Shown here piece by piece: positions 6,280-62,436 of a stretch of DNA of 64,000 nt. The translations under genes and the position numbers were made by a program. The notes beneath the pieces are model-generated. The model did not search any database. It saw nothing but the letters and a program-made list of their open reading frames with translations, and was not told where the DNA came from. Numbering within the stretch: the first letter of the stretch is position 1; every line of letters starts with the position of its first letter. The DNA is from Deltaproteobacteria bacterium. Its GTDB lineage: Bacteria > Desulfobacterota > Deferrimicrobia > Deferrimicrobiales > Deferrimicrobiaceae. The stretch lies in contig JACRCO010000013.1 in the NCBI GenBank assembly GCA_016218975.1, forward strand, positions 1 to 64,000, written 5' to 3'.

Positions 6280-6316
6280 CGACCGGGAGTTACCCCACCT
6301 TTCTCGTCATGTTTCC

Positions 6317-7504
6317 TCATTCCGGGAAGAGCGGCGCCGCCGTCCTCATGTTTTCGGGCCATATGATCTCCTTCTTCCCTTTTTGCCACTGGATGACAAG
6401 GCTCTTGTGACCGATTTGCGTGCCGTCCTTCCGGAGCTTGAACGGCCCCAGGATCGTCTTGTGGTCTCCTGTCACGAGATGCTGCCGGATCTTCTCTCGG
6501 TCGCAGGAACCGGTTTTTTCGACAGCCTCCGCCATGAGCTTCATGGAGGCGTAGGCTGTCGCGGCGTGGTAGGAGGGATCCTCCCCGTATGTCTTGCGGT
6601 AAAGATGAATGAATGCCCTCGAGCCCGCGTAGAGGATCCGCTCGTCGGGTTCCCACTGGGAAGCGCCGAAGGAGCCTTCCGCCAGGGGGCCGAGCTCCTT
6701 AAGGAACTCATGCATCGCCGGACCCACCGATCCCGCGAATACGACGTTCCCATGGTTCTTCCGGTCCAGCGCCTTCCGGATGATAATGCTCTCCCTGAGA
6801 AAGCCCGCGACAATGACTACGTCGGGCTTCGCCGAAATTATCCCTTCCGCCTCGGCGGCCAGGTTCTTTTCGTTTTTCCCGTCGATAATGCTGTACCGCG
6901 CCACCGCCAGCCCGAAATTTTCGGCCCATTTTTTTGCGCCCTTTGCCGTATACAGTGAGAAGGGGTCCGCGAACCCAGTGATGGAGACCGTTTTCCGCCG
7001 ATGGATGGCGCACATCTCCAGGAACCCTATGAAGTATCGGTCCGCAGTGCTGTAAAGGCCGATGGTGTACCTGCGTGGGGTTTCCCATATTTTTTCCGAA
7101 GCGGCGCCGGCGACAAGGACGGGATACCGGAACTTTTCCCAAAGGTTGGCCGCAACGAGGGTCAATTCGGAGGAGTACGGGCTGAACAACAGGTCGACGC
7201 CTTTTTTCTGTATCAGGTCCGAGTAGACCTCTGAAACCTTCGCCGGATTGCTTCCGTCATCCGTGATGAGGATTTTCACCGGCCTGCCGAGGACCCCTCC
7301 CTTTTTGTTTATCTCTTTTTCCCAAAGCCGGTATCCCTTCTCCTGGATGCGTCCCATCTCCGAAAACTTACCCGTCAGGGCAAGCGTGCCGCCGATGAGG
7401 AAGGGCTTCTTTTTGCCCTTTATTTCAGCCGATGCGATTTCCCCGCCGCATAGAACGGTTCCCAGTATTGCCAGGATGCACAAACCTGCGATTCGCCTGC
7501 ACAT
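6317..7504 (-). CDS. Branched-chain amino-acid-type periplasmic binding protein (LivJ-like), orphan
   Basis: This 395-residue exported protein begins with a signal sequence (positive MCRR, a hydrophobic core, and a likely cut after EIASA). The type-1 periplasmic-binding fold follows, with FLIGGTLALTGKFSEMG at the start and ITDDGSNPAKVSEVYSDLI as the second conserved block. Such proteins bind amino acids, amides or aromatic acids. No liv permease or ATPase genes flank it. Instead a membrane hybrid kinase with a periplasmic domain follows after 37 nt, which argues for sensing rather than transport. A good GGGAG ribosome site precedes the ATG. An 8-bp inverted repeat lies 23 bp upstream of the start codon. 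The ligand cannot be predicted. Confidence 0.88.
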   Translation of the reverse strand: MCRRIAGLCILAILGTVLCGGEIASAEIKGKKKPFLIGGTLALTGKFSEMGRIQEKGYRLWEKEINKKGGVLGRPVKILITDDGSNPAKVSEVYSDLIQKKGVDLLFSPYSSELTLVAANLWEKFRYPVLVAGAASEKIWETPRRYTIGLYSTADRYFIGFLEMCAIHRRKTVSITGFADPFSLYTAKGAKKWAENFGLAVARYSIIDGKNEKNLAAEAEGIISAKPDVVIVAGFLRESIIIRKALDRKNHGNVVFAGSVGPAMHEFLKELGPLAEGSFGASQWEPDERILYAGSRAFIHLYRKTYGEDPSYHAATAYASMKLMAEAVEKTGSCDREKIRQHLVTGDHKTILGPFKLRKDGTQIGHKSLVIQWQKGKKEIIWPENMRTAAPLFPE

Positions 7505-7526
7505 ATCTTCTCCCTTGAGGGGTAGT

Positions 7527-7549
7527 ACACCCTGCTTAAAACAGGGTGT
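7527..7549. promoter_or_regulatory. Inverted repeat upstream of the LivJ-like gene
   Basis: ACACCCTG and CAGGGTGT form a perfect 8-bp inverted repeat with a 7-nt AT-rich centre, 23 bp upstream of the start codon of the binding-protein gene on the minus strand. No T-run follows it on either strand, so an operator or a 5'-UTR hairpin is more likely than a terminator. The rest of the gap to the MFS gene is AT-rich. Confidence 0.45.
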
Positions 7550-7627
7550 TATATATTTCGGATATTCCGCCCGATTTTATTAGTGTTTTTAAGCGAAAAG
7601 ATGGGGTCTTTCGAAATATCGACAGGC

Positions 7628-8788
7628 CTACGGATGTTTTTTATCCCTCGTCTCTGCGATTCCGGTAACGAATGGGATCGTGAGGACCAGGATCCCCAGC
7701 GCCGCCACGCCATGCCATCCGGCAAATTGATAAGCGTATCCGCTGGCGGTGATCCCGACAGAGCCTCCGAGGTAATAGAAAAGTACGTACAGGGAATTCG
7801 CCCGTCCCCTGCCGGATGAGAGCCTCATGTTCAGCGAGCCCGCGGCGGCGGAGTGTATCGCGAAGAATCCGGCGCACACGCAGGCGAGGCTTGCGGCGAT
7901 GGCCGGCAGCGACGGGAGGAACGTCATGGCGATGGCCGCGGCGAACAACGCGGAGCCCATCGCCATGGTTGCGCCGTTCCCGATCCGGTTGCTCAGTTTC
8001 CCCGCGGCCGGCCCCGTGAAGGCGCCGACGAGGTAGGAAAGATACGTAAGCGTGATGACCTGCGTGGATGCGCGGAACGGCGGCGACGACAGGTAAAAAG
8101 GGATGTAATTGAACACCGAGGAGAAGACGAAAAACGAGCTGAAGGCCACGAAATATATGGGCAGCAGATCCGGACGGCGAAGAAGGACGGCGAACCGCGC
8201 CGTCTCGTCCGGCGCTTCCTTGCGTCCTTCGCTTTCCGGCAGCCACCGGGCGGCGGCCGCAGTCGCCGCGAGCAGAAGGAGTGAGGCGGTTACGAAGGCG
8301 TAGCGCCAGTGCAGCGGCTGGTGTATCCATCCGCCCAGCAGCCGTCCGCCGAGCCCGCCCACCACCGTGGCGGATACGTATGAGCCCGTCACCACGTTGA
8401 GCCGGTCCGGGGGGAGGCTTCGAACCAGGTGCACGACGAGGCACGTGGTAAGGGAAGGAACGAAAAGCCCCTGTATGAACCTTGCCGCGATGAGGAGCCG
8501 AAGGTCGGCGGATGCGGCGCAGAAGAGCCCGCAGGCGGAGATGGCCGAGCCTCCAAGGAGGATTATCGGGCGTATCGGATAGCGGTCCACAAGCATTCCG
8601 AACGGCAGGTTTGCCAGGGCGATCCCGAGGATCACCGCCGAAATCGTAAGTGAGGCCGTCGACGCACCTACCCCGAACTCGGCGCGGATCACCGGCAAAA
8701 CCGGTTGTGTGATGTAGATCGTGGAAAAAACGGACGCCACGAGCCAGAAGATCAGGGCCTGGAGGCCGAAATGCCTTGTTTCCTGCAT
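7628..8788 (-). CDS. MFS transporter
   Basis: This 386-residue inner-membrane carrier has about twelve hydrophobic segments. A motif A-like loop, GMLVDRYPIRP, lies between TM2 and TM3. A central cytoplasmic loop, rich in charged residues after RWLPESEGRKE, separates the two halves. The layout is that of drug:proton antiporter-type MFS permeases (YnfM-like). The substrate is unknown. It starts only 10 nt downstream of the nucleotidyltransferase stop and is likely the last gene of the isomerase - kinase - nucleotidyltransferase operon, so it might move a sugar or amino sugar, but this is inference. The gap after it leads to the LivJ-like gene. Confidence 0.87.
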   Translation of the reverse strand: MQETRHFGLQALIFWLVASVFSTIYITQPVLPVIRAEFGVGASTASLTISAVILGIALANLPFGMLVDRYPIRPIILLGGSAISACGLFCAASADLRLLIAARFIQGLFVPSLTTCLVVHLVRSLPPDRLNVVTGSYVSATVVGGLGGRLLGGWIHQPLHWRYAFVTASLLLLAATAAAARWLPESEGRKEAPDETARFAVLLRRPDLLPIYFVAFSSFFVFSSVFNYIPFYLSSPPFRASTQVITLTYLSYLVGAFTGPAAGKLSNRIGNGATMAMGSALFAAAIAMTFLPSLPAIAASLACVCAGFFAIHSAAAGSLNMRLSSGRGRANSLYVLFYYLGGSVGITASGYAYQFAGWHGVAALGILVLTIPFVTGIAETRDKKHP

Positions 8789-8798
8789 GGTCGTGCGT

Positions 8799-9746
8799 TC
8801 AGGAAATATCGACGCGGCGATTCGGTGTGAGGATGGCCCCGGAGATTTCGTCTCCAGCGCCGGCGATGGCGTTCGGCCAGAGTATGGCCCGGCGGACGGA
8901 AGCCCCTTCCTTCACGACGGCGCCGTCCTCGATCACGGCCTCGGGGCCGATGCGCGCGCCTGCCGCTATCTTCGCCCCCGAAGATATGTAGACGGGGGGG
9001 ACGATCGTGACGCCGTCCGGCGGGGAAGCGGGCTCTCCTTTCCGCGGCGATGATTCGGTGAGAAGCTCGAGCGTCCCTTCAAGATAGTCCGAGGGAGAGC
9101 CGAATTCCCTGAATGTCCCCGAGGTGAGGAATCCGAACAGGGGAGCGCCTTGCGAGACGAGCCGCAGGTAGGTTTCACGGATGATGCACGACGCCCTTCC
9201 GGGAGGGATTTCCTTCAGCAGCGCCGGTTCCACTATCTGGAATCCGGTGTAGAAGCCTGAGCGGACGCCCGCCGCGCCGGAGCCGATGCCGGCGATCCGC
9301 CCCGTTTCGTCGATCCAGACGGGGGTATACCTTCTTTCCGGATCGGGAAACAGCACAAGCGTGGCAACCGCCTTCCTGTCCCTGTGATACGCCAGCGCGT
9401 CGGCGAACCGGAAACGGGTAACCGTGTCGGAATTCGCAGTCACGAATGTTCCGCCCTCCAGGTATCTTCCCGCGTTTCCTATTCCTCCGCCGGTCCCGAG
9501 GATCTCCGGCTCCAGCGTGTAATCGACGCGGATTTTTCCGCCCGTCCAGCCGGCCACGCGCTGCTGGATCAGCTTCGGCCTCGCGTGCAGGTTCATGACG
9601 AAGGAGCGGACGCCCGACATGGAAAGGAACTCCATGTTGTAGGAACATAGCGGGCGCCCGAGCACCGGCACGATCGGCTTCGGGAGTTCGTAGGTAAGCG
9701 GGCGCAGCCGCGTTCCGAGTCCCGCGGCGAGGATCATGCCCTTCAC
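8799..9746 (-). CDS. NDP-sugar nucleotidyltransferase with left-handed helix tail (MurU/GMPP-like)
   Basis: The N-terminal nucleotidyltransferase domain begins MKGMILAAGLGTRLRPLT, followed by the PKPIVPVLGRP and GTGGGIGNAG loops that bind NTP and sugar-1-phosphate. The last 75 residues contain hexapeptide repeats (PPVYISSGAKIAAGARIG and following), giving a short left-handed beta-helix. It starts at GTG, overlapping the stop of the upstream AmgK-like kinase in GTGA. In pseudomonads the pair AmgK-MurU converts MurNAc to UDP-MurNAc. This protein is longer than MurU (about 315 against 225 residues), so another sugar-1-phosphate is possible. 'MurU-like' is an inference from the gene pairing. Confidence 0.85.
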   Translation of the reverse strand: MKGMILAAGLGTRLRPLTYELPKPIVPVLGRPLCSYNMEFLSMSGVRSFVMNLHARPKLIQQRVAGWTGGKIRVDYTLEPEILGTGGGIGNAGRYLEGGTFVTANSDTVTRFRFADALAYHRDRKAVATLVLFPDPERRYTPVWIDETGRIAGIGSGAAGVRSGFYTGFQIVEPALLKEIPPGRASCIIRETYLRLVSQGAPLFGFLTSGTFREFGSPSDYLEGTLELLTESSPRKGEPASPPDGVTIVPPVYISSGAKIAAGARIGPEAVIEDGAVVKEGASVRRAILWPNAIAGAGDEISGAILTPNRRVDIS

Positions 9747-10828
9747 GGCGGCGCCTCATCCGTCGCCTTGGCCGAAAGTGCTTCCAGGATGGGACGGAGT
9801 TTTTTCGCCAGCGGCCGCATCTTCGGATTCCTGTCGAAGTTCGCCGCAAGGTGCGAAACCGTTGGAGGTATGAACCGCAGATAGAAGGTTTTTCCCCGGT
9901 TGTGCGCCTGGTTTCCGAAGGTTCCTATGGCTTTCACGTTGCGCTGGAGAGCCGCCGCGTCGAGCAGGAATTCGAAGGCGGAGGGATCTCCCCACCTGGT
10001 TCGCAGGTCCGCGGTCGAGGCGTGCCGGTACGCATAACACAGGCTGTCGACCGACTTTTCGGACAGCTTTACGTAGGAATCGCGCAGCAGGGAGCAGATA
10101 TCGTAGTACACGTTCCCCATCCGGGCGTCCTGGAAGTCGAGGATCTTCAGCCCTCCGTACCCGCCGGCGCGGCGATCCGTGACCATGACGTTTCGGCTAT
10201 GGTAATCGCGATGGACGAGCACGCGGGGAAGCGCCGCCAGTACCTCCAAAAAGGGGAGAAAGCGGTCTTCGATCACCCGCTCGTCGGATTCCGACAGCCG
10301 GATCCCGCCGTATTCCCGGACGGCATGCTCGAAAAAGAAGTCGATCTCCTCGGCGAATTTCGCGACGTCGAAGGCAAGGCGGGACGGGACGGCGTTTCCG
10401 TCCAGGGCTTTTGTACCTTCACTCTGGATCCTGACGAGGATCTCCACGCAGCGTTCGTAGGCGGGAAGATGCTCCTCCTCCGATTTCGCCGCGTGCACCG
10501 CCATCTCGAGCGTCGTGTCCCCTGCGTCCTCGAGGAACAGCAGCCGGGCCTCCGGCACGGCAAGGTGGATTTCCGGTACGGGGACCCCCGCCGCTTTAAG
10601 GTAGCGGTGGACGTTCACGAACGGCAGTTCACCGCCCGGCGGGATCTCGTCGGGATATTGCATCATCACGAGCGATGAGAGAGGAAACCCTTCGGGCAGC
10701 GCTATCCGGAAGTACCGGCGCGTTGACGCGTCCCCTGCAAGCTCCGACACCCGGATCTCCGGCGCGGGCGCACGGAAAAGGCGCGCGATCGCCGCCATGA
10801 CGGTTCGTTCGTCCACCGGCGGGCTCAC
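9743..10828 (-). CDS. Aminoglycoside-phosphotransferase-fold sugar kinase (AmgK-like)
   Basis: A protein-kinase-like small-molecule kinase of about 350 residues. The N-lobe has ELAGDASTRRYFRI, matching the DAS-x-RRYFR segment of the cell-wall sugar kinase AmgK. The catalytic loop is VLVHRDYHSRNVMV and the metal-binding segment is KILDFQDARMG. AmgK phosphorylates the anomeric position of MurNAc or GlcNAc. The same frame stays open far upstream into the isomerase gene, but the homologous part begins near the GTG at 10828 (GGAG nine nt before it) or the ATG at 10798. Its TGA overlaps the GTG of the nucleotidyltransferase, so the two are translationally coupled and likely catalyse consecutive steps. 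Confidence 0.84.
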   Translation of the reverse strand: MSPPVDERTVMAAIARLFRAPAPEIRVSELAGDASTRRYFRIALPEGFPLSSLVMMQYPDEIPPGGELPFVNVHRYLKAAGVPVPEIHLAVPEARLLFLEDAGDTTLEMAVHAAKSEEEHLPAYERCVEILVRIQSEGTKALDGNAVPSRLAFDVAKFAEEIDFFFEHAVREYGGIRLSESDERVIEDRFLPFLEVLAALPRVLVHRDYHSRNVMVTDRRAGGYGGLKILDFQDARMGNVYYDICSLLRDSYVKLSEKSVDSLCYAYRHASTADLRTRWGDPSAFEFLLDAAALQRNVKAIGTFGNQAHNRGKTFYLRFIPPTVSHLAANFDRNPKMRPLAKKLRPILEALSAKATDEAPP

Positions 10829-10869
10829 GTCAAGGCGCTCCGATGTTTTCTTGCGTTTTCCCGCTGCAC

Positions 10870-11715
10870 TTACGGCTTCCCGCCGAGGATCAGGTCGAGC
10901 GCGCTGCGGCACTCGCCCAGGATCTCCTCGAAATTCCGGTAACGTGCGTTCTCTCCGCGGGTGTAATCGCGCAGTTCGATCGTGAAAGGTCCGCGAAAAT
11001 CCACCTCCCTGAGCGCGGCGATCGCACGTTCCCACGGGACCGAACCCCTCCCCGGCGCGAAGTGGTCGTCCTTGCTTCCGTGATTGTCGGATGCGTGCAC
11101 GTGTATCAGGCGGTCTGCGCAGGCGCGGATGGCGTTGAGGACGTTTTCCTGAATATGAGCGTGAGCCAGGTCCATGCAAATGCCTACGCGATCGGGGGGG
11201 TAGCGGTGCGCTATGGAGAGGACGATATCCGAGCGCCCCGAGGCAAGCGGGGTGTTCTCCACGGCGAACCGGATGTTCTCCGGGACAAGGTCGAGAAGCT
11301 CGTTCAGGGAGGAGAGGAATGCCCCCCATCTGTGCGGATACCATGATTCGGTGGGAAAGTTGGTGTGAACGACGATCGTCCCGCCCCCATGGCGTGCGAG
11401 CCAGCACGCCGCGCGGGCTGTGGCGGACACCGAAGCCTGCCGGTGGCCTTCCTCTTCCGAGGATAGCGAATACCATCGGTCTTCGCGATACGTCCGCACG
11501 TCCGGGTAGAGCGGAGCGTGCAGGCTGGCGATCCGTACACCGTTCGACTCCAGAAGGTCCGCGATCCCGTCGGCTGCTTCGGGATCGTCGTAAGGGAAGT
11601 GCGGGGGCATGGCCCAAAGCTCCGCGAGCCCGAACCCGAACCTGGGGAATAGGGAAGCGATGGCATCGTCCAGCGGATGGAAAGCGAACAAATGGGAGGA
11701 AAGCGACAGGTCCAT
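10870..11715 (-). CDS. Sugar phosphate isomerase/epimerase (xylose-isomerase-like TIM barrel)
   Basis: This 281-residue cytoplasmic protein has the AP-endonuclease-2/xylose-isomerase barrel fold. Visible strand-end motifs include IASLHAPLYPD, FAVENTPL, RVGICMDLAHAH and LIHVHASDN, with His, Glu and Asp residues placed for a divalent metal site, and GPFTIELRDY near the end. Substrates in this family range from hydroxypyruvate to inosose and sugar phosphates and cannot be assigned here. It is the first gene of a leftward operon with the AmgK-like kinase and the nucleotidyltransferase. It is divergent from the lytic transglycosylase gene, sharing an upstream region of about 80 bp. Confidence 0.83.
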   Translation of the reverse strand: MDLSLSSHLFAFHPLDDAIASLFPRFGFGLAELWAMPPHFPYDDPEAADGIADLLESNGVRIASLHAPLYPDVRTYREDRWYSLSSEEEGHRQASVSATARAACWLARHGGGTIVVHTNFPTESWYPHRWGAFLSSLNELLDLVPENIRFAVENTPLASGRSDIVLSIAHRYPPDRVGICMDLAHAHIQENVLNAIRACADRLIHVHASDNHGSKDDHFAPGRGSVPWERAIAALREVDFRGPFTIELRDYTRGENARYRNFEEILGECRSALDLILGGKP

Positions 11716-11729
11716 CAGGGCATCGATCC

Positions 11730-11760
11730 TTGTTTACGGCGCCGCATAGGGCGATACTAT
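11730..11760 (+). promoter_or_regulatory. Possible promoter for the lytic transglycosylase
   Basis: A TTGTTT -35-like box and a TACTAT -10-like box lie 19 bp apart, 37 bp before the GTG at 11797. The spacing is long and both boxes are imperfect, so this is a weak call. Confidence 0.3.
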
Positions 11761-11796
11761 CTTATTATCGACCTTTCCGGGAGGACCCTGTCGAGA

Positions 11797-14031
11797 GTGA
11801 TCCGAAACAAACGTTTCCTGTTTCTTGCGCTCCTGTTCCTGATACTTCCGCAGATCGCCGCCTCCGCTTCCCACGATGCAGCATTCCGCGAAGGATGGAT
11901 CAATCTCACGGAAGAAAAGTACGCTGAAGCGAGGAATTCGTTCCGGCGCATCCCCCCACTGGTATACGACCTCGGCGACTACGCGATTTACTTCACCGGC
12001 CTCTCCTTCGCGAGGGAGGGTTTGCGCGGCGAGGCCGCGTCGGCATTCGACGATCTGTCGAAAAAGTTCCCCGCGTCGCCGCTGCGGCCGTACCTCGCCC
12101 ACGCGCTCGCCTACGCTGCCGCGGTCGACAACGACCTTCCCGCTGCACGGATCTGGTTCGAGCGCTCGCAGGGATTCGCTTCCGGTAACGGCGGCAAGGC
12201 GGAGGAGGGATTCGTCGCCGCCTTTCTTCTCGAGGCGGACGGTCCCTCGGCGGCCGCAGCGGAAGCGCACCTCGAAAATTTCGCCGCGCACCCTGCCCAG
12301 GAGGCGGCTTCCCTCTCCATGGTGCGGCTGAAGTCCTGGCGGGCAAGCGGGAAGTGGGAAGGGTGGAGCCTGCCGGTATCCTTCTACGGAAAATACGCAA
12401 AAAGCCTTTCACGCGCAGTCGAGATCGAAGATGCGAAGTCGGTCTACGCGGACGCCCTTCGGAAATTCCCGCCGTCCGACGACTACTACACGGTGCTGCT
12501 CGATTATGCCGATCTTCTCCGAAAGGCGGGGGACACGGCGGGATCGAGGGCGCTGCTGGACAAGGCGGCCCCCGGGGCGCCGCCTGCTTTCCGGAACGAA
12601 GCGAGGTTTCTGCGGGCACGGGTCGACTGGAAGGCGGGAAAACTGGCGGAAGCGCGAGCCGGCTTCATGGCGATAGCGGGCGAGGGGAGCGTCCGGCCCG
12701 GAACCGCAGAGCGGGCGGGCTACTACGCGGCATGGCTCGCCGAAGAAGAGGGGGACGGGGCGGCGGCGAACGAAATCTACGGAGCGCTGCGGGAAGCGAA
12801 GGACGAGCCGATCCGCCAGGAGGCGATCTTCCGCTACGCTTTCGGACACTACCGGGGAAAACTGTACGATAACGCCGTCGCACTGTTCGCGGCGGGGGAG
12901 AAGACGGGCTTTTCCTCCGTGGAAAGGGCGAGGCATGCGTATTGGAGGGCGAAAGCGCTCCTCGATTCCGGGAGGAAGGACGAGGCGGAGAAGTCGTTCG
13001 CCTCGATCGCGGTCGACCCCGGTGCGGGGCCCTACGCGCTTTTCGCGGCGCGGTTTTCGGGGCGGGATCCTTTCGCCATGTTCAAGGCTCCGTCTTCCGG
13101 CGAGACGGGAAGGTGTTCCGAGGAAAAGGACCAGCTGTGGAAAAGGGTTCGGAAAGCCGATTGGTCGAAAGCGGACGCGGAGCATATCCGTCGGATGGAT
13201 CGGCTTGTCCATCTTGGAATAACGGAATACGCCATCCTCGAAGCGTGCTGCATCGACCGCAAGGCGATACGGAATGCGATAGGGCTTGCGGAAGGAGGGA
13301 CCGCGGGTCTGATCCGCTATCTGTCCGGAGATCTCCGGGGCGCCATCCGCGAGACCACGAACCTGCCGAACGACCCGTCGACCGTGGAACTGATCGACCG
13401 GATCCAGTTTCCGCTCGCGCCGGATGTCATAGGCGACTGCGACCGGAAACGCTCGGGAATGGATCCTCTGCTCCTTCATTCCATCGTGCGGCAGGAGTCC
13501 CAGTTCCAGCCCAATGCGCTTTCCCCGGCGGGGGCGATCGGCCTGATGCAGCTGATGCCTCGCACTGCCGCCGAAGTCGCACGCAAGGAGAAGATGAAGA
13601 AACCGAAGCGGAAGGACCTGCTGAAGCCGAAACTGAACGTCACGCTGGGTGCGGCGTACCTGTCGAGGCTGGTCCGCGAGTACGGCGGCGACTATTTTCG
13701 CGCGGTCGCCGCGTACAACGCAGGGGAGGCGGCGGTGGCCAAATGGTGGAGGAACTCCGGCGGAGACCCCGCGCTCTTCCTGGAAAACGTGACCTACCGC
13801 GAGACCCGCTTTTACCTTCGCAGGGTGTTCTTCAACGTTCTCCAATATTACTCGATATACAGGCCTCGGATGTTCGCACGTCACTTTCCCATCGTTCCCG
13901 AAGAAGGGCAGCCAACTCCCGGTGCCGCTTCGCCCCCACCGAACGAAGGGACGATCGTCGTACCCCAGGGGCGGCAGCCGATCCCCGAAAACGGGCAACC
14001 CGCCGTTCCGCCTGCCCGGCCGCCTTCCTGA
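11797..14031 (+). CDS. Soluble lytic murein transglycosylase (Slt-like)
   Basis: A periplasmic protein of about 744 residues that cleaves peptidoglycan to 1,6-anhydro-MurNAc products. A signal sequence (RNKRFLFLALLFLILPQ, with a likely cut after AASA) is followed by a long TPR-like alpha-helical superhelix, as in Slt70. The C-terminal SLT domain has SIVRQESQFQPNALSPAG (catalytic Glu in RQES), GLMQLMPRTA and AAYNAGE. I chose the GTG at 11797 because it directly precedes the signal peptide; the frame is open further upstream. The last ~55 residues after YYSIYRPR are Pro/Gly-rich, lie outside the SLT domain, and overlap the convergent nagZ gene by 200 bp. Confidence 0.92.
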   Translation: MIRNKRFLFLALLFLILPQIAASASHDAAFREGWINLTEEKYAEARNSFRRIPPLVYDLGDYAIYFTGLSFAREGLRGEAASAFDDLSKKFPASPLRPYLAHALAYAAAVDNDLPAARIWFERSQGFASGNGGKAEEGFVAAFLLEADGPSAAAAEAHLENFAAHPAQEAASLSMVRLKSWRASGKWEGWSLPVSFYGKYAKSLSRAVEIEDAKSVYADALRKFPPSDDYYTVLLDYADLLRKAGDTAGSRALLDKAAPGAPPAFRNEARFLRARVDWKAGKLAEARAGFMAIAGEGSVRPGTAERAGYYAAWLAEEEGDGAAANEIYGALREAKDEPIRQEAIFRYAFGHYRGKLYDNAVALFAAGEKTGFSSVERARHAYWRAKALLDSGRKDEAEKSFASIAVDPGAGPYALFAARFSGRDPFAMFKAPSSGETGRCSEEKDQLWKRVRKADWSKADAEHIRRMDRLVHLGITEYAILEACCIDRKAIRNAIGLAEGGTAGLIRYLSGDLRGAIRETTNLPNDPSTVELIDRIQFPLAPDVIGDCDRKRSGMDPLLLHSIVRQESQFQPNALSPAGAIGLMQLMPRTAAEVARKEKMKKPKRKDLLKPKLNVTLGAAYLSRLVREYGGDYFRAVAAYNAGEAAVAKWWRNSGGDPALFLENVTYRETRFYLRRVFFNVLQYYSIYRPRMFARHFPIVPEEGQPTPGAASPPPNEGTIVVPQGRQPIPENGQPAVPPARPPS

Positions 14032-49468: not shown

Positions 49469-50302
49469 CTATGCGGGCGAAGGCCTCGCGATCTTGAGTA
49501 TCATCATGGGGCCGTCCGGCACAACCGCCCAGCGGGCGTGCGAACCGTGCTTTTCGATCAACCGCCGAACGCAGGAAACGATATCATTCACCGGCAGGAA
49601 ATGGTATCTGCGCAGTTCTTCGGGATTGACGCCTTCCGAGTAGATCCAGACATTCCGGACCATCATCACCTGGTAGGTCTCCTGGGCGCACCACTGGTCA
49701 GGGATGAAGAATTCCTTCCGCATGAGCCTGCCCAGAAACGCTGCCGGTGAATCCACGCGCTCCAGAATCTCGCGGTACTCCGGGTTCCCGGCACCCTCCG
49801 CGCATCGGCTGGCTATCAGTATGTCGCCCCCGGTCTTCACGGCGGGGGCCGCGCCGGTGATCCCCTTTACGGTCTGGTATAGGTTGCAGTCCAGCGGCGC
49901 CCCGGCGTTGGTGGTGACGATGAAATCGAGAGGGGCATCCAGTTCCTTTACGCAGTGGCGCGCCAGGAATCGGCACCCCTCGATGTGCGCCTCCACCGGG
50001 TCGCCGGAGAAGACCCCGGTGACCCGCTTCGACGTGTCCAGCGTGACGTTGACGATGAAATCAGCCCCCGCCATTGCAAGAACTTCGAGCCCGGCTTCGT
50101 GGAAGGGGTTTCCATCGAGCTGCCCGTATTCGCATCCCGGGTGGGAGACCATTTCCGGCCCGTGCATGTATTGGACGGTGTCGAGCGCGGATATACCGGG
50201 GAGGATTGCCATCCTGCCCCCCGAATAGCCTGCCCACATATGCGGCTCGGGGGCGCGTTTTATAGTTGCGCTGTCATTGTTCAGCCGCCATGGAAGGGTC
50301 AT
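49469..50302 (-). pseudogene. 5'-truncated LarA-family (lactate racemase-like) protein
   Basis: The 277-residue product matches the middle and C-terminal part of the LarA/DUF2088 family: EPHMWAGYSGGRMAILPGI, VTTNAGAPLDCNLYQTVKGI and KTGGDILIASRCAEG. The N-terminal ~160 residues normally present are missing, and an in-frame stop lies two codons before the ATG; no remnant is visible upstream. The lysine usual after GGR is Met here. LarA enzymes carry the nickel-pincer cofactor and racemise lactate or other 2-hydroxy acids. A truncated, probably inactive relic is most likely; a stand-alone C-domain protein is the alternative. Confidence 0.68.
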
Positions 50303-50350
50303 GTTTTATTCCATTTTAATTATCGTGGCGGGCGATGGAAGAATACTGAA

Positions 50351-50443
50351 CGGCGATCAATCGCCGAGTCCTGGGATTTGTGGAAAACATCGTCGAATTA
50401 TGATATTGATTTATAGCGTCAAGGAATCCTTATCGATAGACGC
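50351..50443 (+). promoter_or_regulatory. Structured leader upstream of the TonB receptor
   Basis: The 195-bp gap before the TonB gene holds two hairpin-forming pieces: CGGCGAT-CA-ATCGCCG (50351-50366), and GCGTC (50416-50420) pairing with GACGC (50439-50443) around a nested AAGGAATCCTT (50421-50431). No cobalamin B12-box or other riboswitch core that I recognise is present. It could be a cis-regulatory RNA or operator DNA. Confidence 0.38.
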
Positions 50444-50497
50444 AAGGAAAATCCGTTGAGGACATGCAGCAAAAAGTGAATTCCTGTTGATGGATGG

Positions 50498-52510
50498 ATG
50501 AAGATGCGGAACGCGTCTTGCCGCATCCGTCACCATGTGCAGGGATCGCTGCGAAAAGCGGTGCTTCCCTTATCGGCTCTCCTCCTCATCATTATCCCCG
50601 TATGCGTCGATTCCGCGGACCATGCCGTCAAACCGGCCATGCAGGATATCCAGCTTGCGGCCGCGACCACGAAGGAAGAGCTCTTGCTCTTCTGGGAAGA
50701 GAAGGATTTGTACGTACAGTCCGCGACAAGGCACCCGAAACCGATTTCACGGGCCGCGGAGAATATAGCCGTCGTCACGGCGAAAGAGATAGAGGAGATG
50801 AACGCCCACTCCGTGGAAGAAATCCTGAACCGGGTCCCGGGTGTTTATGTCGATTTTCAGGGGCAGGATTTCAGCCCCGTGGGGCTGATACATATACAGG
50901 GGTCGATCCAGAGTGCGGAAGACCGGCATGTCGCCGTGTACCTGGACGGCGTACCGATGAACAATCTTTCCGGGGGCACCGCCGTCACCACGATGATTCC
51001 GGTCCGGATAATCGATCGGATCGAGATCGTAAAAGGCCCCGCTTCGTCGACATGGGGTTCCGCCCTGGGGGGCGTCGTAAATATCATCACGAAGGACCAG
51101 GGCGTCACCCGAACGCCGAAAGCGACGGTCAGCGCGTCCTACGGGGAAAAAAACTCGCAGGACTATAACGGGGAACTCTTCGGCCGGCCAGGCAGCGCCG
51201 GTTACTACCTGTTCGCGGGCTGGCAGGATTCGGACGGGCTGCGCGACCACCGGGCGACCGAGAAAAACAGGGCCTACGCCAAGGTCGGCGTTACCCCCTC
51301 ACGTGATCTGGATCTTCTCTTCTCCGCGGGATACGGCGATCACTTCAGCGATAGCGGCGACAATCCGGTAATGCCGACACGTTCCGGCATAGACCTTTCC
51401 GTCCTTTTCGCGACCGGCTCCTTCAATTACCGCGTGTCCCCCCGAATGAGCCTGAAAGGCGCTCTCCATTATATTCGCCAGAAGTTCGACTCGTCGAGCT
51501 TCGTTCCCGCCACCGACCAGCTTCGGCGGGAGACGATCACCGACGACAGGACTTCGGGCGGTAATCTGAAACTCGTTCATGCAGGCGACAGGCACACGGT
51601 GGTGGCGGGAGCGGAATTCGGGCACGGAACGCTTCAGCAGACAATCCGTTACGGGCCCCAGTATCAATCGCCCCCCTACAATCAACCGTCATCGACCTTC
51701 GTCGAGCCCCGCGTCGATAAATGGGCGCTGTTCGTAAACGACACAATTGTCGCCGGCAGGCTTGCCGTCACTCCCGGCGTCCGGCTCGACCGCAACAACG
51801 TCAGCGGCACATTCCTGAGTCCAAGCATGGGCGCCACATTCTCCCTCGGCGAGCACACCGTGGCCCGCGCTTCCGTCGCCCGGGGGTTCACAGCGCCTCC
51901 ACTGGTTTTTATCCTGGGCGGAGGGTTCTTCATCGAGCCTAACCCCGCGCTGGAACCGGAGCGGGTCTGGTCCTACCAGGCGGGGCTGGAATCGGCCGTC
52001 ACGGAGCATGCGAACGTAAAGGTAACCCTTTTCCGGCATGAATCCACGAAGGAAATCGTAACGGAACGGGTCGCGTCCAGGCCGCCGTTCAAGGTCGCCG
52101 TGAACAGCGGCGAAGTCACGCGAAACGGCTATGAGATCGAGACGGAAACAGCGCCTTTCTACAATATTTCCCTTAAAGCAGCCCATGCCTACGTACGCGT
52201 CGAGTCGGATTCCACGCGGGATCCGAGGACCATTTACTCGTTTCACGCGGGCGTGATGTACGATGACAGGAAGCATCGAACGGCGCAGCTTGCAGGCACC
52301 TACGTCAATTGGGACGAACCGGCGGATTCAAGGGCGGTCTATGCGTTCCTGTGGGACTTCAACTTCATCGAAAGGATACGCGCGGCGGAAAGGACGAACA
52401 TGGACCTTTTCCTGACCGTCCACAACGTGACCAACTCCGACGCATATTCTTTATACGTTTTTCCGAACCCGGGAAGGTGGGTCGAGGCCGGTTTGCGGCT
52501 CCGGTTCTGA
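50498..52510 (+). CDS. TonB-dependent outer-membrane receptor
   Basis: A 670-residue protein with an N-terminal export segment (AVLPLSALLLIIIPVCVDS). The plug domain at about 90-205 has ENIAVVTAKEIEEMNAHSVE, RVPGVYVDF, VAVYLDGVPMNN and DRIEIVKGPASSTWGSAL. A 22-strand-type barrel follows and ends in Phe (VEAGLRLRF). A TonB box could be in the ELLLFWEEKDLYV region, but this is uncertain. The substrate is unknown. The binding-protein gene follows after 9 nt and a hybrid kinase after that, so the receptor probably imports or senses the ligand of this trio. Structured DNA/RNA lies upstream. Confidence 0.94.
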   Translation: MKMRNASCRIRHHVQGSLRKAVLPLSALLLIIIPVCVDSADHAVKPAMQDIQLAAATTKEELLLFWEEKDLYVQSATRHPKPISRAAENIAVVTAKEIEEMNAHSVEEILNRVPGVYVDFQGQDFSPVGLIHIQGSIQSAEDRHVAVYLDGVPMNNLSGGTAVTTMIPVRIIDRIEIVKGPASSTWGSALGGVVNIITKDQGVTRTPKATVSASYGEKNSQDYNGELFGRPGSAGYYLFAGWQDSDGLRDHRATEKNRAYAKVGVTPSRDLDLLFSAGYGDHFSDSGDNPVMPTRSGIDLSVLFATGSFNYRVSPRMSLKGALHYIRQKFDSSSFVPATDQLRRETITDDRTSGGNLKLVHAGDRHTVVAGAEFGHGTLQQTIRYGPQYQSPPYNQPSSTFVEPRVDKWALFVNDTIVAGRLAVTPGVRLDRNNVSGTFLSPSMGATFSLGEHTVARASVARGFTAPPLVFILGGGFFIEPNPALEPERVWSYQAGLESAVTEHANVKVTLFRHESTKEIVTERVASRPPFKVAVNSGEVTRNGYEIETETAPFYNISLKAAHAYVRVESDSTRDPRTIYSFHAGVMYDDRKHRTAQLAGTYVNWDEPADSRAVYAFLWDFNFIERIRAAERTNMDLFLTVHNVTNSDAYSLYVFPNPGRWVEAGLRLRF

Positions 52511-52519
52511 CGATATCCC

Positions 52520-53401
52520 ATGATCGATCGTTATTCGATAATTGCCCTGGCGATCGCCTTTTTTCTGATTGGTCCGTTTGCCCTCGCGCCCGAGGCGGCG
52601 GATGTGATCGTCGTCGGCGATACGCAGTTGAAGCCGGTCGTGGAGATGATCGCGGGGATCCGTCAGACGTACGATTCTTCCTTCACGACGTATTCTCCCT
52701 CCGAAGTCCGGGGAAGGCTGCGGTCGATAACGGAGAAGGAGAAGGCGAAAGTAATCGTCGCGCTCGGAAAGGATGCGCTGGCGGACGCCCTGGGCCTGCC
52801 GTCCTCCACTCTCGTCATATATGACCTGGTCGTTACTCCGCCCGCCGTCAGCAGGCCGAACACCACGGGTTTTTACATGGGGACCCCCGTCAAGGAATAC
52901 GTTGATCTCATCAACGAGCACCTTCACTCCATCAGGAAGATGGCGGTCGTCGGAACACGGGACCAGTTGAGCGTGCTCGACCGGGAGGAAAACCGAAAGG
53001 TCGTTTCCTACCGGGTGAAAAACGCGGGCGAATTCGTGGATACGCTGCGGCGGCTGGATTCCGCGGACGCCATACTGCTCCCTCCCGACATCTCCCTGTT
53101 GACGGCCACGGCGCTGGAGGAAGCGTATCTCCTTTCGTTCCGAAAGAAGATCCCTTTGCTGGGAATTTCGGAAAAGAACGTGCGGCAGGGGGCGCTGCTT
53201 GCCCTTGTGTTCGATCCCGCCAACGTCGGCCGCCGGATCGGCGAGTATGCCGCCAAGGCGGTCAAGGGAACGAATGTCGGGCAGGTTCCGCCGTCCCCGC
53301 CGCAGCGGTTCGACCTTTACCTGAACAGCGAAACCGCCAGGAAAATGGGAATTCAGCTCCCGATCGAGATCGTCCGGAAGGCGAAAAAAATATACCCGTG
53401 A
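52520..53401 (+). CDS. ABC_sub_bind family periplasmic protein (TrpX-like), orphan
   Basis: This 293-residue exported protein (signal core SIIALAIAFFLIGPFAL, likely cut near APEA) belongs to the PF04392-type substrate-binding family. Typical blocks are VIVALGKDALADAL, FYMGTPVKEYVDLI, DSADAILLPPDISLLT, KIPLLGISEKNVRQGALLAL and FDLYLNSETARKMGI. No ABC permease or ATPase lies nearby. It sits between a TonB receptor and a hybrid kinase, with a GTGA overlap to the latter, which points to ligand sensing. Ligands in the family include aromatic amino acids, but this one is unassigned. Confidence 0.86.
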   Translation: MIDRYSIIALAIAFFLIGPFALAPEAADVIVVGDTQLKPVVEMIAGIRQTYDSSFTTYSPSEVRGRLRSITEKEKAKVIVALGKDALADALGLPSSTLVIYDLVVTPPAVSRPNTTGFYMGTPVKEYVDLINEHLHSIRKMAVVGTRDQLSVLDREENRKVVSYRVKNAGEFVDTLRRLDSADAILLPPDISLLTATALEEAYLLSFRKKIPLLGISEKNVRQGALLALVFDPANVGRRIGEYAAKAVKGTNVGQVPPSPPQRFDLYLNSETARKMGIQLPIEIVRKAKKIYP

Positions 53402-55857
53402 ACCTTACGTTCAAAATGAAGTCGATGGCGTTCGTGATGGCGATCCTCGTGGTCGTGTCGCTCGTCTACACCTACGAAACCATCAAGAACGAGAAGGAGA
53501 TAACGAGGAACGAGATCATCAAGAGGGCGGAAACGATAACGACGCTGGCTACGAAAACCGGAGAGCTGCCGATACTTTCCGGGAATGCCGAGCTGCTGAA
53601 AAACACGCTGTCCTTCCTGCGAAGCGGTTCCGAAGTTTCCTCCTTCACCTTCTACGACAGCTCAATGAAAATGCTGGTCCATGACGGTCCGCCGCTTTTG
53701 CGCCCCGAACCCGACCCTTCCACGGACACCCCCGTTTCCATGATGGAAAACGAGGACGCTTTCGTCTTTTACGCTCCGATCTTCACCGAAAGGGAAGTGT
53801 CGGAAATCGACATGTTCCGGAAGGGCGATTCCACCGGCAAGGTGAAGGAAAAAATCGGATGGGTCCGCCTGGGATTTTCGAAGTCTTCCATGAAGGAAAA
53901 CGAGCGGCGGATCGTCGCGAGAGGGCTGCTTCTTGCCGTCGCTTTCACTTCGGTCGGCTGCATCCTCGTGTACTTCCTTATAAGCATGGCCATGCGGCCG
54001 CTCGACAGGATCGTGAGCGTGGCGCACGGCATAGCGAAAGGGGACCTGAGCCAGGAAATCGACGTCGGGCGGCAGGACGAGATAGGGGCGCTGGCAGACG
54101 CTTTCCAGTCCATGAAAAACTCCATCCGCCGGGTATTGTGGGAAACGCACGGGCTCATCGGGTCGGTCCAGGCGGGACGCCTTGACCGGCGCGGCGAATC
54201 CGGGACCTTCGCGGGAGCATGGCGCGACCTCGTGGAGGGGATGAACAACCTTGCGGATACGTTTTCCGGTATCCATGCGGAGCTTAAGGAAGCCAAGGTG
54301 ACCCTGGAGAATCGGGTCGAGGAGAGGACGGCGGAGCTTTTGGAATCGGAGTCGAAGTACCGCCACCTGATCGAAAACGCCGACGAGGCCATCTGCATCG
54401 TTCAGGATGAACGGATCAAGTTTCCGAACCCGGCCGCTGCGCGGATCTCCGGGTATTCGCCTGAAGAGCTGGGACGCATGCCGTTCACCGGCCTGGTCCA
54501 CCCGGACGACAGGGAGATGGTCCGGGAAATGTACAGAAAGCGCCTGCGAGGGGAGGAAACCCCGGGCATCTTTTCCATTCGGGTGCGGAACAAGTCCGGA
54601 GAAGACCTGTGGGTGCAGGTCAACGCGGCGCCTATCGACTGGGAAGGGCGGGCGGCGGCGCTGACGTTCATAAGCGACATCACACGACAGAAGAAACTCG
54701 AATCCCAGCTTTTCTCGGCCCAGAAGATGGAATCGATCGGCAAGCTTGCGGGGGGGATCGCGCATGATTTCAACAACCTCCTTACCGCCATCATCGGCTA
54801 TTGCGACCTGGCCTTGTTGCGGTTTACGGGGATAGAACCGCTGAGACACGATATCGAAGGAATCAGGAAGGCTTCCGAGCGTTGCGCCACGCTGACGCAG
54901 CAGCTTCTGGCCTTCAGCAGGAAGCAGATCCTCGTTCCGAAGGTCATCAACCTGAACACGGTCGTTGATGAGATGGACAAGATGCTGCGGAGGCTTATCG
55001 GCGAGGATATCGACCTGGTGACCCATCGGGACGAGAAGCTCGGCAATGTGAAGGCCGATCCGGGACAGATCGAACAGGTCATCGTTAATCTGACGGTCAA
55101 TTCCCGCGACGCGATGCCCCGCGGCGGAAAGCTTACCGTCGAAACCGCGAACGTCGAGCTGGACGAAGCGTATACGGCGCTTCATGAAGGAATATCTCCG
55201 GGACCGTACGTCATGCTGGCCGTGAGCGACAACGGTGCGGGGATGGACGAAAAGACCCTGTCTCACATCTTCGAACCTTTCTTTACGACGAAGGAGACAG
55301 GTACCGGGCTTGGATTATCGACGGTCTACGGCATCGTCCGGCAGAGCGGCGGCAATATCTTCGTTTACAGCGAACCGGGGCTGGGGACGACCTTCAAGAT
55401 CTACCTTCCCCGCGTGGATGAAAACGTATCCCCGGCGTTGCAGGCGGCGCAGGCGCCCGGGGAGCGGCGGGGAAGCGAAACCGTCCTGGTCGTGGAGGAC
55501 GAGGAAATCGTCCGGCAGCTGGTGCAGGAGATCCTGGGAAAGAACGGCTACAAGGTGCTGACGGCCGGGAACGGGGAGGAAGCCCTGCGGGTCTGCGAGC
55601 GGCATCACGGGATCATCCACCTCATTCTGACCGACGTGGTGATGCTCGGGATGAGCGGAATGGAGGTCTCACGCCGGGTGGCGCACCGGAGGCCGGGCGT
55701 AAAGGCGCTGTACATGTCGGGTTATACGGACGACGCGATAGTGCAATACGGGGTGCTGGAGCCGGGGATCGATTTCGTCCAGAAACCGTTCACGGCCGAC
55801 GCGCTGGCCCTCAAGGTCCGCGAAGTGCTGGACCGCCCGGCCGTCAGGTCCCGCTGA
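53398..55857 (+). CDS. Membrane hybrid histidine kinase coupled to an orphan binding protein
   Basis: An 819-residue kinase. TM1 lies at about 8-28, with a periplasmic sensor at about 30-170 of no clear family. TM2 lies at about 175-198. HAMP follows at about 198-252, with a HAMP-like/coiled-coil repeat to about 310 and PAS at about 315-430. HisKA carries His456 in GGIAHDFNN, and HATPase_c has VSDNGAGMDE and GTGLGLSTVYG. A C-terminal receiver has Asp746 in LILTDVVMLGMSG and the QKP lysine. It starts with GTG overlapping the binding-protein stop, so stoichiometric synthesis is expected. The binding protein is the obvious candidate for presenting a ligand to the periplasmic domain. No dedicated output protein is adjacent. 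Confidence 0.93.
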   Translation: MNLTFKMKSMAFVMAILVVVSLVYTYETIKNEKEITRNEIIKRAETITTLATKTGELPILSGNAELLKNTLSFLRSGSEVSSFTFYDSSMKMLVHDGPPLLRPEPDPSTDTPVSMMENEDAFVFYAPIFTEREVSEIDMFRKGDSTGKVKEKIGWVRLGFSKSSMKENERRIVARGLLLAVAFTSVGCILVYFLISMAMRPLDRIVSVAHGIAKGDLSQEIDVGRQDEIGALADAFQSMKNSIRRVLWETHGLIGSVQAGRLDRRGESGTFAGAWRDLVEGMNNLADTFSGIHAELKEAKVTLENRVEERTAELLESESKYRHLIENADEAICIVQDERIKFPNPAAARISGYSPEELGRMPFTGLVHPDDREMVREMYRKRLRGEETPGIFSIRVRNKSGEDLWVQVNAAPIDWEGRAAALTFISDITRQKKLESQLFSAQKMESIGKLAGGIAHDFNNLLTAIIGYCDLALLRFTGIEPLRHDIEGIRKASERCATLTQQLLAFSRKQILVPKVINLNTVVDEMDKMLRRLIGEDIDLVTHRDEKLGNVKADPGQIEQVIVNLTVNSRDAMPRGGKLTVETANVELDEAYTALHEGISPGPYVMLAVSDNGAGMDEKTLSHIFEPFFTTKETGTGLGLSTVYGIVRQSGGNIFVYSEPGLGTTFKIYLPRVDENVSPALQAAQAPGERRGSETVLVVEDEEIVRQLVQEILGKNGYKVLTAGNGEEALRVCERHHGIIHLILTDVVMLGMSGMEVSRRVAHRRPGVKALYMSGYTDDAIVQYGVLEPGIDFVQKPFTADALALKVREVLDRPAVRSR

Positions 55858-55894
55858 ACCCTATCGGTGCAAATTTCTATCGAAGGAGGATTGG

Positions 55895-55966
55895 AGCCGA
55901 CGGCCGGGATTGAACCGGCAACCTGCTGATTACGAATCAGCTGCTCTACCGTTGAGCTACGTCGGC
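55895..55966 (-). tRNA. tRNA-Thr (anticodon CGU)
   Basis: On the minus strand the 72-nt sequence folds into a full cloverleaf. The acceptor GCCGACG pairs with CGTCGGC, the D arm is TAGCTCAACGGTAGAGC, and the anticodon stem GCTGA/TCAGC has loop TTCGTAA. The T arm is CCGGTTCAATCCCGG. The anticodon CGT reads ACG threonine codons. No CCA is encoded. It lies between the kinase gene and RNase G in an otherwise featureless gap. Confidence 0.96.
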
Positions 55967-60144: not shown

Positions 60145-62436
60145 GTGCGACTGATCTGGAACCAGGGAGCCGGTTTTTCGTTCCGGCCGGACGAGTTCTA
60201 CGGTCGCGAAGAGGAGCTGGCCACCCTCTTGCGCGTATGCAGGGACGGGAAGTCCGGCGTCGGGGCGTCCGTTATGATTTACGGACCTCCCAACGTGGGA
60301 AAGACTTCCCTTCTCCTGAAGCTCAAACACGAGCTTCAGTCGCTCCCTGAGGAAACGGCCTCGCCCCGGCCGTTCCCGTTCTATTTCTCCTTCAGCAAGA
60401 TCCTTTCCCATCCTTTGGCGCTCTCCCAGCATTTCCTCCAGGAGTTCCTTTGGCAGGCCCTGGTCTTTCTCGGGGATTCCCCCCCCGCCGCGTTCGACGC
60501 CGATGCGATGTGCGAAAGGCTCGTGTCCTTCGGCCTCTCCGATTGCCGCGAGCTCCTTCTCGCGCACCGCCGTTTCACGGAGCGCGGCGACGGCCTGTCC
60601 GCACTGGTCAGCGCGGTTTCCTTCCCGTTCTCGACCGGGGGAGATCTCTTTCATCCGGTGTTTCTCTTCGACGATTTCCAGTATACGACCAAACTCCAGG
60701 GCATTCCCGACGGGGCGATGCTTTCCATTCTGCGCCCGTACATAAAATCGGGCCATTTCCCCATGATCGTGTCCGGCTCGTCTCCGGGGCACGTGACTTC
60801 CTGCCTCAAGCGGGAAGGGTTGTTCGGCACTTTCCAGATGATGGAGATCGCGGGTCTTTCCCCCGCAGCGTCGGAATCGCTCTGGACCTCCCTTCTGGAT
60901 CGGCGGAAGATCGGAATGCCCGTCCCCATACAGGCACGAGCGGCCGCAAGGCTGGGGCACGTGCCGGTATACCAGCGTATGTTCGCCGAGGAAGTGTCCT
61001 TCCGGTGCGAAGCCGTGACCGACGAGATTTCCTTCGAGAATATCTACGCCCAGTCGGTGACCGAAGGGCAGCTCAACCGGTACTGGCGGGAGTTCTTCGA
61101 AAACGCCTTTCCCGACCGGGTCGACCGGGCGCGGGCGGTGAAGTTCCTGAAGCGCATCCTCTGCGACCGCTTTCCGCTCGACACTTTCGACGGGGCTCTT
61201 TCCCTCCTCGGGACTTCCTCGGAAGACGGCGGGAGAATCCTCTCGACGCTGGAGTTCAAGGGGCTTGCGAAGTCCGATTTCGACCAGATCAGGTTTTCCG
61301 AGGACCCGGTGCTCGCGGACTTTCTCTACTGGGCGTTCGAGAGAGGCGTCGCAGGGATGAACAGTTCCCAGGTCGCCGCCGCGATCGTGCAGGCGAAACT
61401 GTTCCTGGCCGCGGCGGAACCCGCCGAGGGAGAGCGTGATAAGTGGATCGGCACGACCAAGGAGCTCATGCGCCGTTGGGACTGCCGCGAAGTCCCGATG
61501 CTCCTCTTCCGGTTCGGGCTTTTCCGGGACCGGTTCGGGGGAAAAGGGCTTCTCGAGGTTGTCATGGGAATGGAGAAGGAACCGCAGAAGATGCGGCTTC
61601 CCAAGATCAGCTCCGTTTCCACCGGCTACCGGACCCGCCGTCGCGGCCCGAGGCTGGATTTCGACATGGTGGCCTACGGGTTCCTCGACGCGGAATTCTC
61701 CGAGGAGAACCTCGTGATCTGGGCGGTGGACGTGAACGCCGGGAAGACGCTCAGCGCCATGGCGGTGGAACATTTCGAGAACCGGTGCCGGTTGCTGATC
61801 CTCGAAAAGGGCCTGAAGGAGCATCAGCTCCGGAAATGGATCCTCTTCGAGGGGGGGGTGGACCCCGTCGCGATCGAACTGGCGGGCAGGTACGGCATCC
61901 TCCTGACCCACCGTTCCCAGATGCTCATCTTCCTGAACCTGTTCGGGCTGGAGGAGATCGAGCTCCAGGCCGAATCACGCAAGCCGGCGGACCCGCCGCC
62001 GGGGCCCGAGCCGCTTGAATTCGAGCTGGTCCTTCCCATGAAGGCGGACACGGAAGTGGTGGCGGCGCGGGTGGCGGAGGAGGTGGCGGCCTACGCCTCC
62101 CTCGATGCGGATTCCGTGGACCGGATCAAGATGGCCTTGATAGAGGCATGCATCAACGCGTTCGAACACAGCGGCGCGGAGTCGGGAAAGGTCAGGCTCC
62201 GGTATGTGCTTTCACCCACGAAAATCGAGCTTTTCGTGCAGGACGAGGGAAAGGGGTTCCGCGGAGGCAGGACCGACGAGTCCCGCCGCAACCGCGGATG
62301 GGGGCTCAAGCTGATCCGTGAACTGGTGGACGACGTGGAGATCAGGACCGGGGACGGGGGAACCGTCGTGCGAATGGTGAAGTACCTTGAACCCGGAACT
62401 GAAAAGGAAGGAGCGGGATCTCCGGATCCCGAATAG
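60145..62436 (+). CDS. AAA/STAND-type ATPase fused to an RsbW-like anti-sigma kinase
   Basis: A 763-residue cytoplasmic protein. The N-terminal archaeal-ATPase-like P-loop domain has FYGREEELATLLR, Walker A IYGPPNVGKTSLLLKL (45-60) and Walker B VFLFDD (172-177). A helical winged-helix region follows. Around 500-600 lies a segment resembling the PD-(D/E)xK fold seen in such ATPases (DFDMVAY... WAVDVNAG), but without the E-x-K, so likely inactive. The last ~125 residues are an HATPase_c_2 domain with N-box MALIEACINAFEHSG, QDEGKGF and GWGLKLIRELVDDVEI, as in RsbW/SpoIIAB. A STAS antagonist gene follows after 9 nt. ATP-driven sensing coupled to partner switching is inferred. Confidence 0.86.
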   Translation: MRLIWNQGAGFSFRPDEFYGREEELATLLRVCRDGKSGVGASVMIYGPPNVGKTSLLLKLKHELQSLPEETASPRPFPFYFSFSKILSHPLALSQHFLQEFLWQALVFLGDSPPAAFDADAMCERLVSFGLSDCRELLLAHRRFTERGDGLSALVSAVSFPFSTGGDLFHPVFLFDDFQYTTKLQGIPDGAMLSILRPYIKSGHFPMIVSGSSPGHVTSCLKREGLFGTFQMMEIAGLSPAASESLWTSLLDRRKIGMPVPIQARAAARLGHVPVYQRMFAEEVSFRCEAVTDEISFENIYAQSVTEGQLNRYWREFFENAFPDRVDRARAVKFLKRILCDRFPLDTFDGALSLLGTSSEDGGRILSTLEFKGLAKSDFDQIRFSEDPVLADFLYWAFERGVAGMNSSQVAAAIVQAKLFLAAAEPAEGERDKWIGTTKELMRRWDCREVPMLLFRFGLFRDRFGGKGLLEVVMGMEKEPQKMRLPKISSVSTGYRTRRRGPRLDFDMVAYGFLDAEFSEENLVIWAVDVNAGKTLSAMAVEHFENRCRLLILEKGLKEHQLRKWILFEGGVDPVAIELAGRYGILLTHRSQMLIFLNLFGLEEIELQAESRKPADPPPGPEPLEFELVLPMKADTEVVAARVAEEVAAYASLDADSVDRIKMALIEACINAFEHSGAESGKVRLRYVLSPTKIELFVQDEGKGFRGGRTDESRRNRGWGLKLIRELVDDVEIRTGDGGTVVRMVKYLEPGTEKEGAGSPDPE

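Follow-up and report, generated by a model that had tools for sequence, protein, structure and literature searches.

The window, by which we mean the whole stretch of 64,000 nucleotides that was analysed, contains three consecutive genes on the forward strand that encode a TonB-dependent outer-membrane receptor, a soluble periplasmic binding protein of the PF04392 type and a membrane hybrid histidine kinase, in that order and spaced by 9 and -4 nt (Table 1). This is the operon proposed in the preliminary description, which had also stated that ABC transporter components are lacking; indeed, neither a permease nor an ATPase adjoins the trio among the open reading frames and Pfam matches around positions 50498-55857. 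Promoter and terminator scans gave signals scarcely above those of shuffled sequence.

Table 1. Coordinates of the trio, of the insertion that carries it and of other loci mentioned in the text
Feature	Location	Coordinates	Strand	Remarks
larA remnant	window	49469..50302	-	277 aa vs 429 in sister genome G003; left edge of insertion; alignment with G003
Inserted segment with trio	window	50250..55891		missing in G003 (same genus); flanking homology ends at 50249 and resumes at 55892
TonB-dependent outer-membrane receptor	window	50498..52510	+	670 aa; Plug PF07715, barrel PF00593 (Pfam)
Soluble periplasmic binding protein, PF04392 type	window	52520..53401	+	293 aa; divergent N-terminal lobe
Membrane hybrid histidine kinase	window	53398..55857	+	GTG start, 819 aa; sCache_4, HAMP, PAS, HisKA, HATPase_c, Response_reg (Pfam)
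tRNA-Thr (CGT)	window	55892..55966	-	ARAGORN; right edge of insertion; same tRNA at matching place in G003
Peripla_BP_6 binding protein and hybrid kinase	window	4054-7504	-	binding protein 6317-7504, kinase 4054-6279
AAA_16/HATPase_c_2 protein	window	60145-62436	+	763 aa
Second trio	contig C36 (L181)	7316-12768		same genome
PF04392 protein and dCache kinase	contig C71 (L180)	8252-11893		same genome
Half-size MFS protein	L041	7290-7847		Nitrospirota locus
Half-size MFS protein	L043	7272-7832		Nitrospirota locus
Half-size MFS protein	L040	7335-7889		Nitrospirota locus
Half-size MFS protein	L037	927-1460		Nitrospirota locus

The receptor consists of plug and barrel only, with a conserved N-terminal motif, ELLLFWEEKDLYVQSATR, immediately ahead of the plug, and it scores under the cut-off of each substrate-specific NCBIfam TonB model among the matches listed. 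Neither an STN domain nor any other N-terminal signalling domain of the Fec type was found in it by Pfam and no sigma/anti-sigma pair lies beside the trio, which bears out the proposed distinction from Fec-type TonB transducers; the trio resembles these in that a TonB receptor is tied to regulation, but signalling of the Fec type was rejected for it on the grounds of the missing STN domain. The binding protein carries a signal peptide but neither a lipobox nor any cysteine, and it matches PF04392 with 54.8 bits (cut-off 25.9) over residues 112-290 only, the C-terminal two thirds. Its predicted structure (pLDDT 83.5) appears to adopt the type-I periplasmic-binding fold, with 3lkv, TrpX (3lft) and CD0873 (6hni/6hnj) as closest neighbours, followed by TorT (from its complex with TorS) and LuxP (from its complex with LuxQ). 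In the kinase, the periplasmic domain claimed earlier is a sCache_4 domain of ~150 aa between two transmembrane segments, the model of which is of low confidence (pLDDT 69), and the catalytic motifs are all intact (H456, N-box, G1, F and G2, together with D746 and K796 of the receiver). Two other loci in the window were noted: one encodes a protein that begins with an AAA_16 ATPase and ends with a HATPase_c_2 domain, and the other a further pair in which a hybrid kinase follows, 37 nt later, a binding protein of the Peripla_BP_6 family, which differs from the PF04392 family of the trio.

Comparison with a sister genome of the same genus (G003) suggests how the trio came to lie here. The flanks are syntenic between the two genomes, RNase G being 94% identical, and the same place in G003 is occupied by the 5' part of larA, a FAD-linked oxidase that is absent from the window and a partial tRNA copy of 25 bp. 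The left homology break falls inside larA, the remnant of which has Pfam and NCBIfam matches on its C-terminal part only, and homology restarts on the right exactly at the 3' end of tRNA-Thr. Since these flanks match and the trio is missing in G003, the trio is best read as an insertion with a local deletion. A chimeric assembly joined at the tRNA is unlikely, given that a single sister genome shows synteny on either side and that the left break lies inside larA. The trio was not found in three genomes of the same genus, two of which are incomplete.

A transporter partner for the binding protein was sought in the whole genome. No dedicated permease was found; the best permease-like matches are Liv-type, the top one having its own Peripla_BP_6 protein, and an ABC importer with a distant permease was consequently rejected. 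The window protein shares family and fold with the binding proteins of TrpXYZ-type ABC importers (PF04392), but differs from them in its divergent N-terminal lobe and in the lack of a linked permease or ATPase.

The trio is conserved well beyond this genome. A scan of species genomes identified ten closest relatives, from Geobacter kin and Nitrospirota, whose binding proteins are 56-66% identical to that of the window. In all ten, the binding protein is followed by a kinase whose sensor half is the same, and nine also encode a related TonB receptor, the contig of the tenth (L037) starting too near the binding protein. The receptors share 43-52% identity with the window receptor over the length of the latter and the kinases 42-62% over the first 300 aa; across the relatives the sensor half of the kinase is conserved while its output half varies, and some clusters contain two binding proteins. 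Such conservation of order and content implies more than a chance neighbourhood. The co-occurrence that the preliminary description proposed to look for is therefore found, and the two observations that it had named as refuting, an unconserved neighbourhood or a functional transporter for the binding protein elsewhere, were both sought without success. Its reading of the genes as a trans-envelope sensor gains support from the conserved arrangement and the missing permease, but overlooked the link to RiPP biosynthesis that the relatives reveal.

In the clusters of these relatives, a radical-SAM/SPASM enzyme of the TIGR04280 family (geopeptide maturase) is encoded between the receptor and kinase genes, and four of these enzymes scored 549-641 bits when tested (cut-off 400). 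The maturase is present in nine of the ten clusters, once as a fragment at a contig end and once split over two reading frames, and eight of the ten have an intact Cys-Cys precursor open reading frame; in L039 both are absent beside the trio. The precursor frames encode 31-34 aa with an invariant Cys-Cys and are preceded by good ribosome sites. The precursor model TIGR04229 is passed by two precursors, both from other loci, with several more under its cut-off. At 20 further maturase loci elsewhere in Geobacterales, chosen across genera but not strictly random, every one adjoins a TonB receptor, while 18 have a PF04392-like protein and about 17 a kinase. Maturase, receptor and binding protein also occur together in a further three families within the phylum. 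Among 60 PF04392 loci surveyed in the phylum, high-scoring members stand by ABC permeases (24) and divergent ones often by kinases (about 15), a few loci having a receptor and maturase.

Within Geobacterales, the association differs between two clades of binding proteins. Across 141 Geobacterales genomes, TIGR04280 exceeds its cut-off in 101 and the binding-protein family of the window occurs in 29; a maturase lies within 5 kb of 14 of 20 clade-1 binding-protein loci, as against none of 19 clade-2 loci (Fisher test, 3e-6; hand counts from two lists, leaving out clade-1 loci cut by contig ends). The second clade (L160-L174, L177 and L178) comprises receptor - binding protein - kinase trios that occur widely in Geobacterales and have another type of receptor, binding-protein scores of about 300-360 bits and no adjoining maturase there; trio and peptide are therefore separable. 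In trees of the receptor, the binding protein and the kinase sensor, the window protein falls within the maturase-linked clade in all three. Elsewhere in the same genome there are a second trio of TonB receptor, PF04392 protein and hybrid kinase and a pair of a PF04392 protein with a dCache kinase (Table 1).

Because maturase and precursor cluster with the trio in its relatives, and the maturase mostly does so at the 20 further loci, the trio appears to be the receiving arm of geopeptide RiPP systems, an assignment from gene context that would provide a candidate ligand class. Homologues of all three window proteins are found in geopeptide clusters of Geobacterales and Nitrospirota, the difference being that the window has neither a maturase nor a detectable precursor. 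The NCBIfam models TIGR04280 and TIGR04229 cover the maturase and the precursor only, and within open-licence papers we found no account of a receptor, a binding protein or a kinase in geopeptide clusters, the term 'geopeptide' itself returning only lipopeptide or 'oligopeptide' matches. Between maturase and binding protein, the Nitrospirota loci also share a half-size MFS protein of 185 aa (73-77% identity), which is a candidate geopeptide exporter.

No maturase was detected in the genome of the window, a draft that is 97.6% complete, the best TIGR04280 match reaching 83 bits against the cut-off of 400. A profile of TIGR04229-like Cys-Cys precursors likewise gave no match in this genome; in control searches it recovered precursors in four genomes, of which three belong to its training set, and missed diverged ones, so that the absence of a precursor is weak evidence. 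Remnants of either gene were looked for in the window and rejected, none being found. The window copy thus appears to be a receptor-only insertion at tRNA-Thr and no isolated oddity. Given that the maturase link is known from the relatives and that the window copy lacks a maturase, its ligand may have changed.

Characterized systems offer partial parallels. Most characterized couples of binding protein and kinase are encoded by neighbouring genes (PMC11113362), and LuxP-LuxQ, TorT-TorS and AgtS/AruS (PMC11113362) share with the trio a type-I fold, a hybrid-kinase neighbour and the lack of a permease. As in such sensor pairs, the binding protein of the trio adjoins a kinase with a periplasmic sensor in the absence of a permease, the difference being that the sensor of the window kinase is sCache_4-like. 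To our knowledge, LuxP-LuxQ, TorT-TorS and AgtS/AruS use other binding-protein families and are linked neither to a TonB receptor nor to RiPP genes. The closest analogue of the trio as a whole is methanobactin uptake. Methanobactin, also a modified peptide, has operons with a TonB receptor (MbnT) and in some cases a binding protein downstream (PMC3621798), and foreign methanobactin is taken up via a second receptor (PMC9601215), which provides a precedent for a modified peptide served by a receptor and a binding protein and for uptake of a foreign product. In contrast to the trio, which has a hybrid kinase and a receptor lacking the corresponding domain, the methanobactin signal is carried by the sigma/anti-sigma pair MbnI/MbnR and an N-terminal receptor domain (PMC3621798, PMC9601215).

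On balance, we favour the view that the trio is probably a module of a geopeptide-type RiPP system that comprises the receptor side only and was acquired horizontally at tRNA-Thr. The TonB receptor would bind and import a modified Cys-Cys peptide that other bacteria make and secrete, either as such or complexed with metal. The PF04392 protein would then bind the peptide in the periplasm and, there being no permease, dock on the sCache domain; the complex with its ligand may modulate the kinase by analogy with LuxP-LuxQ and TorT-TorS. Autophosphorylation of the kinase, whose domains are observed and whose signalling is presumed, would change in response, with phosphate passing to its own receiver and on to a response regulator or HPt protein encoded elsewhere. 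Direct signalling between receptor, binding protein and kinase is what we infer from this arrangement.

It is conceivable, if rather unlikely, that the trio was once linked to geopeptides and now senses an unrelated nutrient or metal chelate across the envelope, as the second clade might. Existence of that conserved, maturase-free clade is consistent with such a change, as is a genome that has no maturase and encodes, besides this trio, a second one and a pair of binding protein and kinase; the window proteins, however, group with the maturase-linked clade and away from the second one in all three trees. Uptake of a peptide metallophore, with the metal as its purpose and the kinase merely tuning expression to the imported complex, is improbable. 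The invariant Cys-Cys of the precursors would suit this role and the receptor, occasional binding protein and foreign-product uptake of methanobactin systems provide precedent (PMC3621798, PMC9601215), but the binding protein has no linked inner-membrane importer, so that the cargo would remain in the periplasm, and no metal enzyme was recognized among the loci read. That the trio is a non-functional or chance island, its genes having arrived jointly without serving one pathway, is the explanation to which we give very little credence: its patchy presence, with no copy detected in the three genomes of the same genus (two being incomplete), would agree with it, but the reading frames and catalytic motifs are intact, the genes nearly overlap and their order is conserved over two phyla.

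If the trio is indeed a receptor-only geopeptide module, an uncharacterized RiPP family gains a candidate receptor and signalling route. More tentatively, geopeptides may be RiPP signals that Gram-negative bacteria exchange across phyla and sense with a receptor - binder - kinase relay, and this bacterium would eavesdrop on the producers via its transferred, receptor-only copy. Peptides would then be sensed across both Gram-negative membranes independently of a sigma/anti-sigma pair, and receptor-only copies would serve as markers of eavesdroppers in Geobacter-rich sediments.
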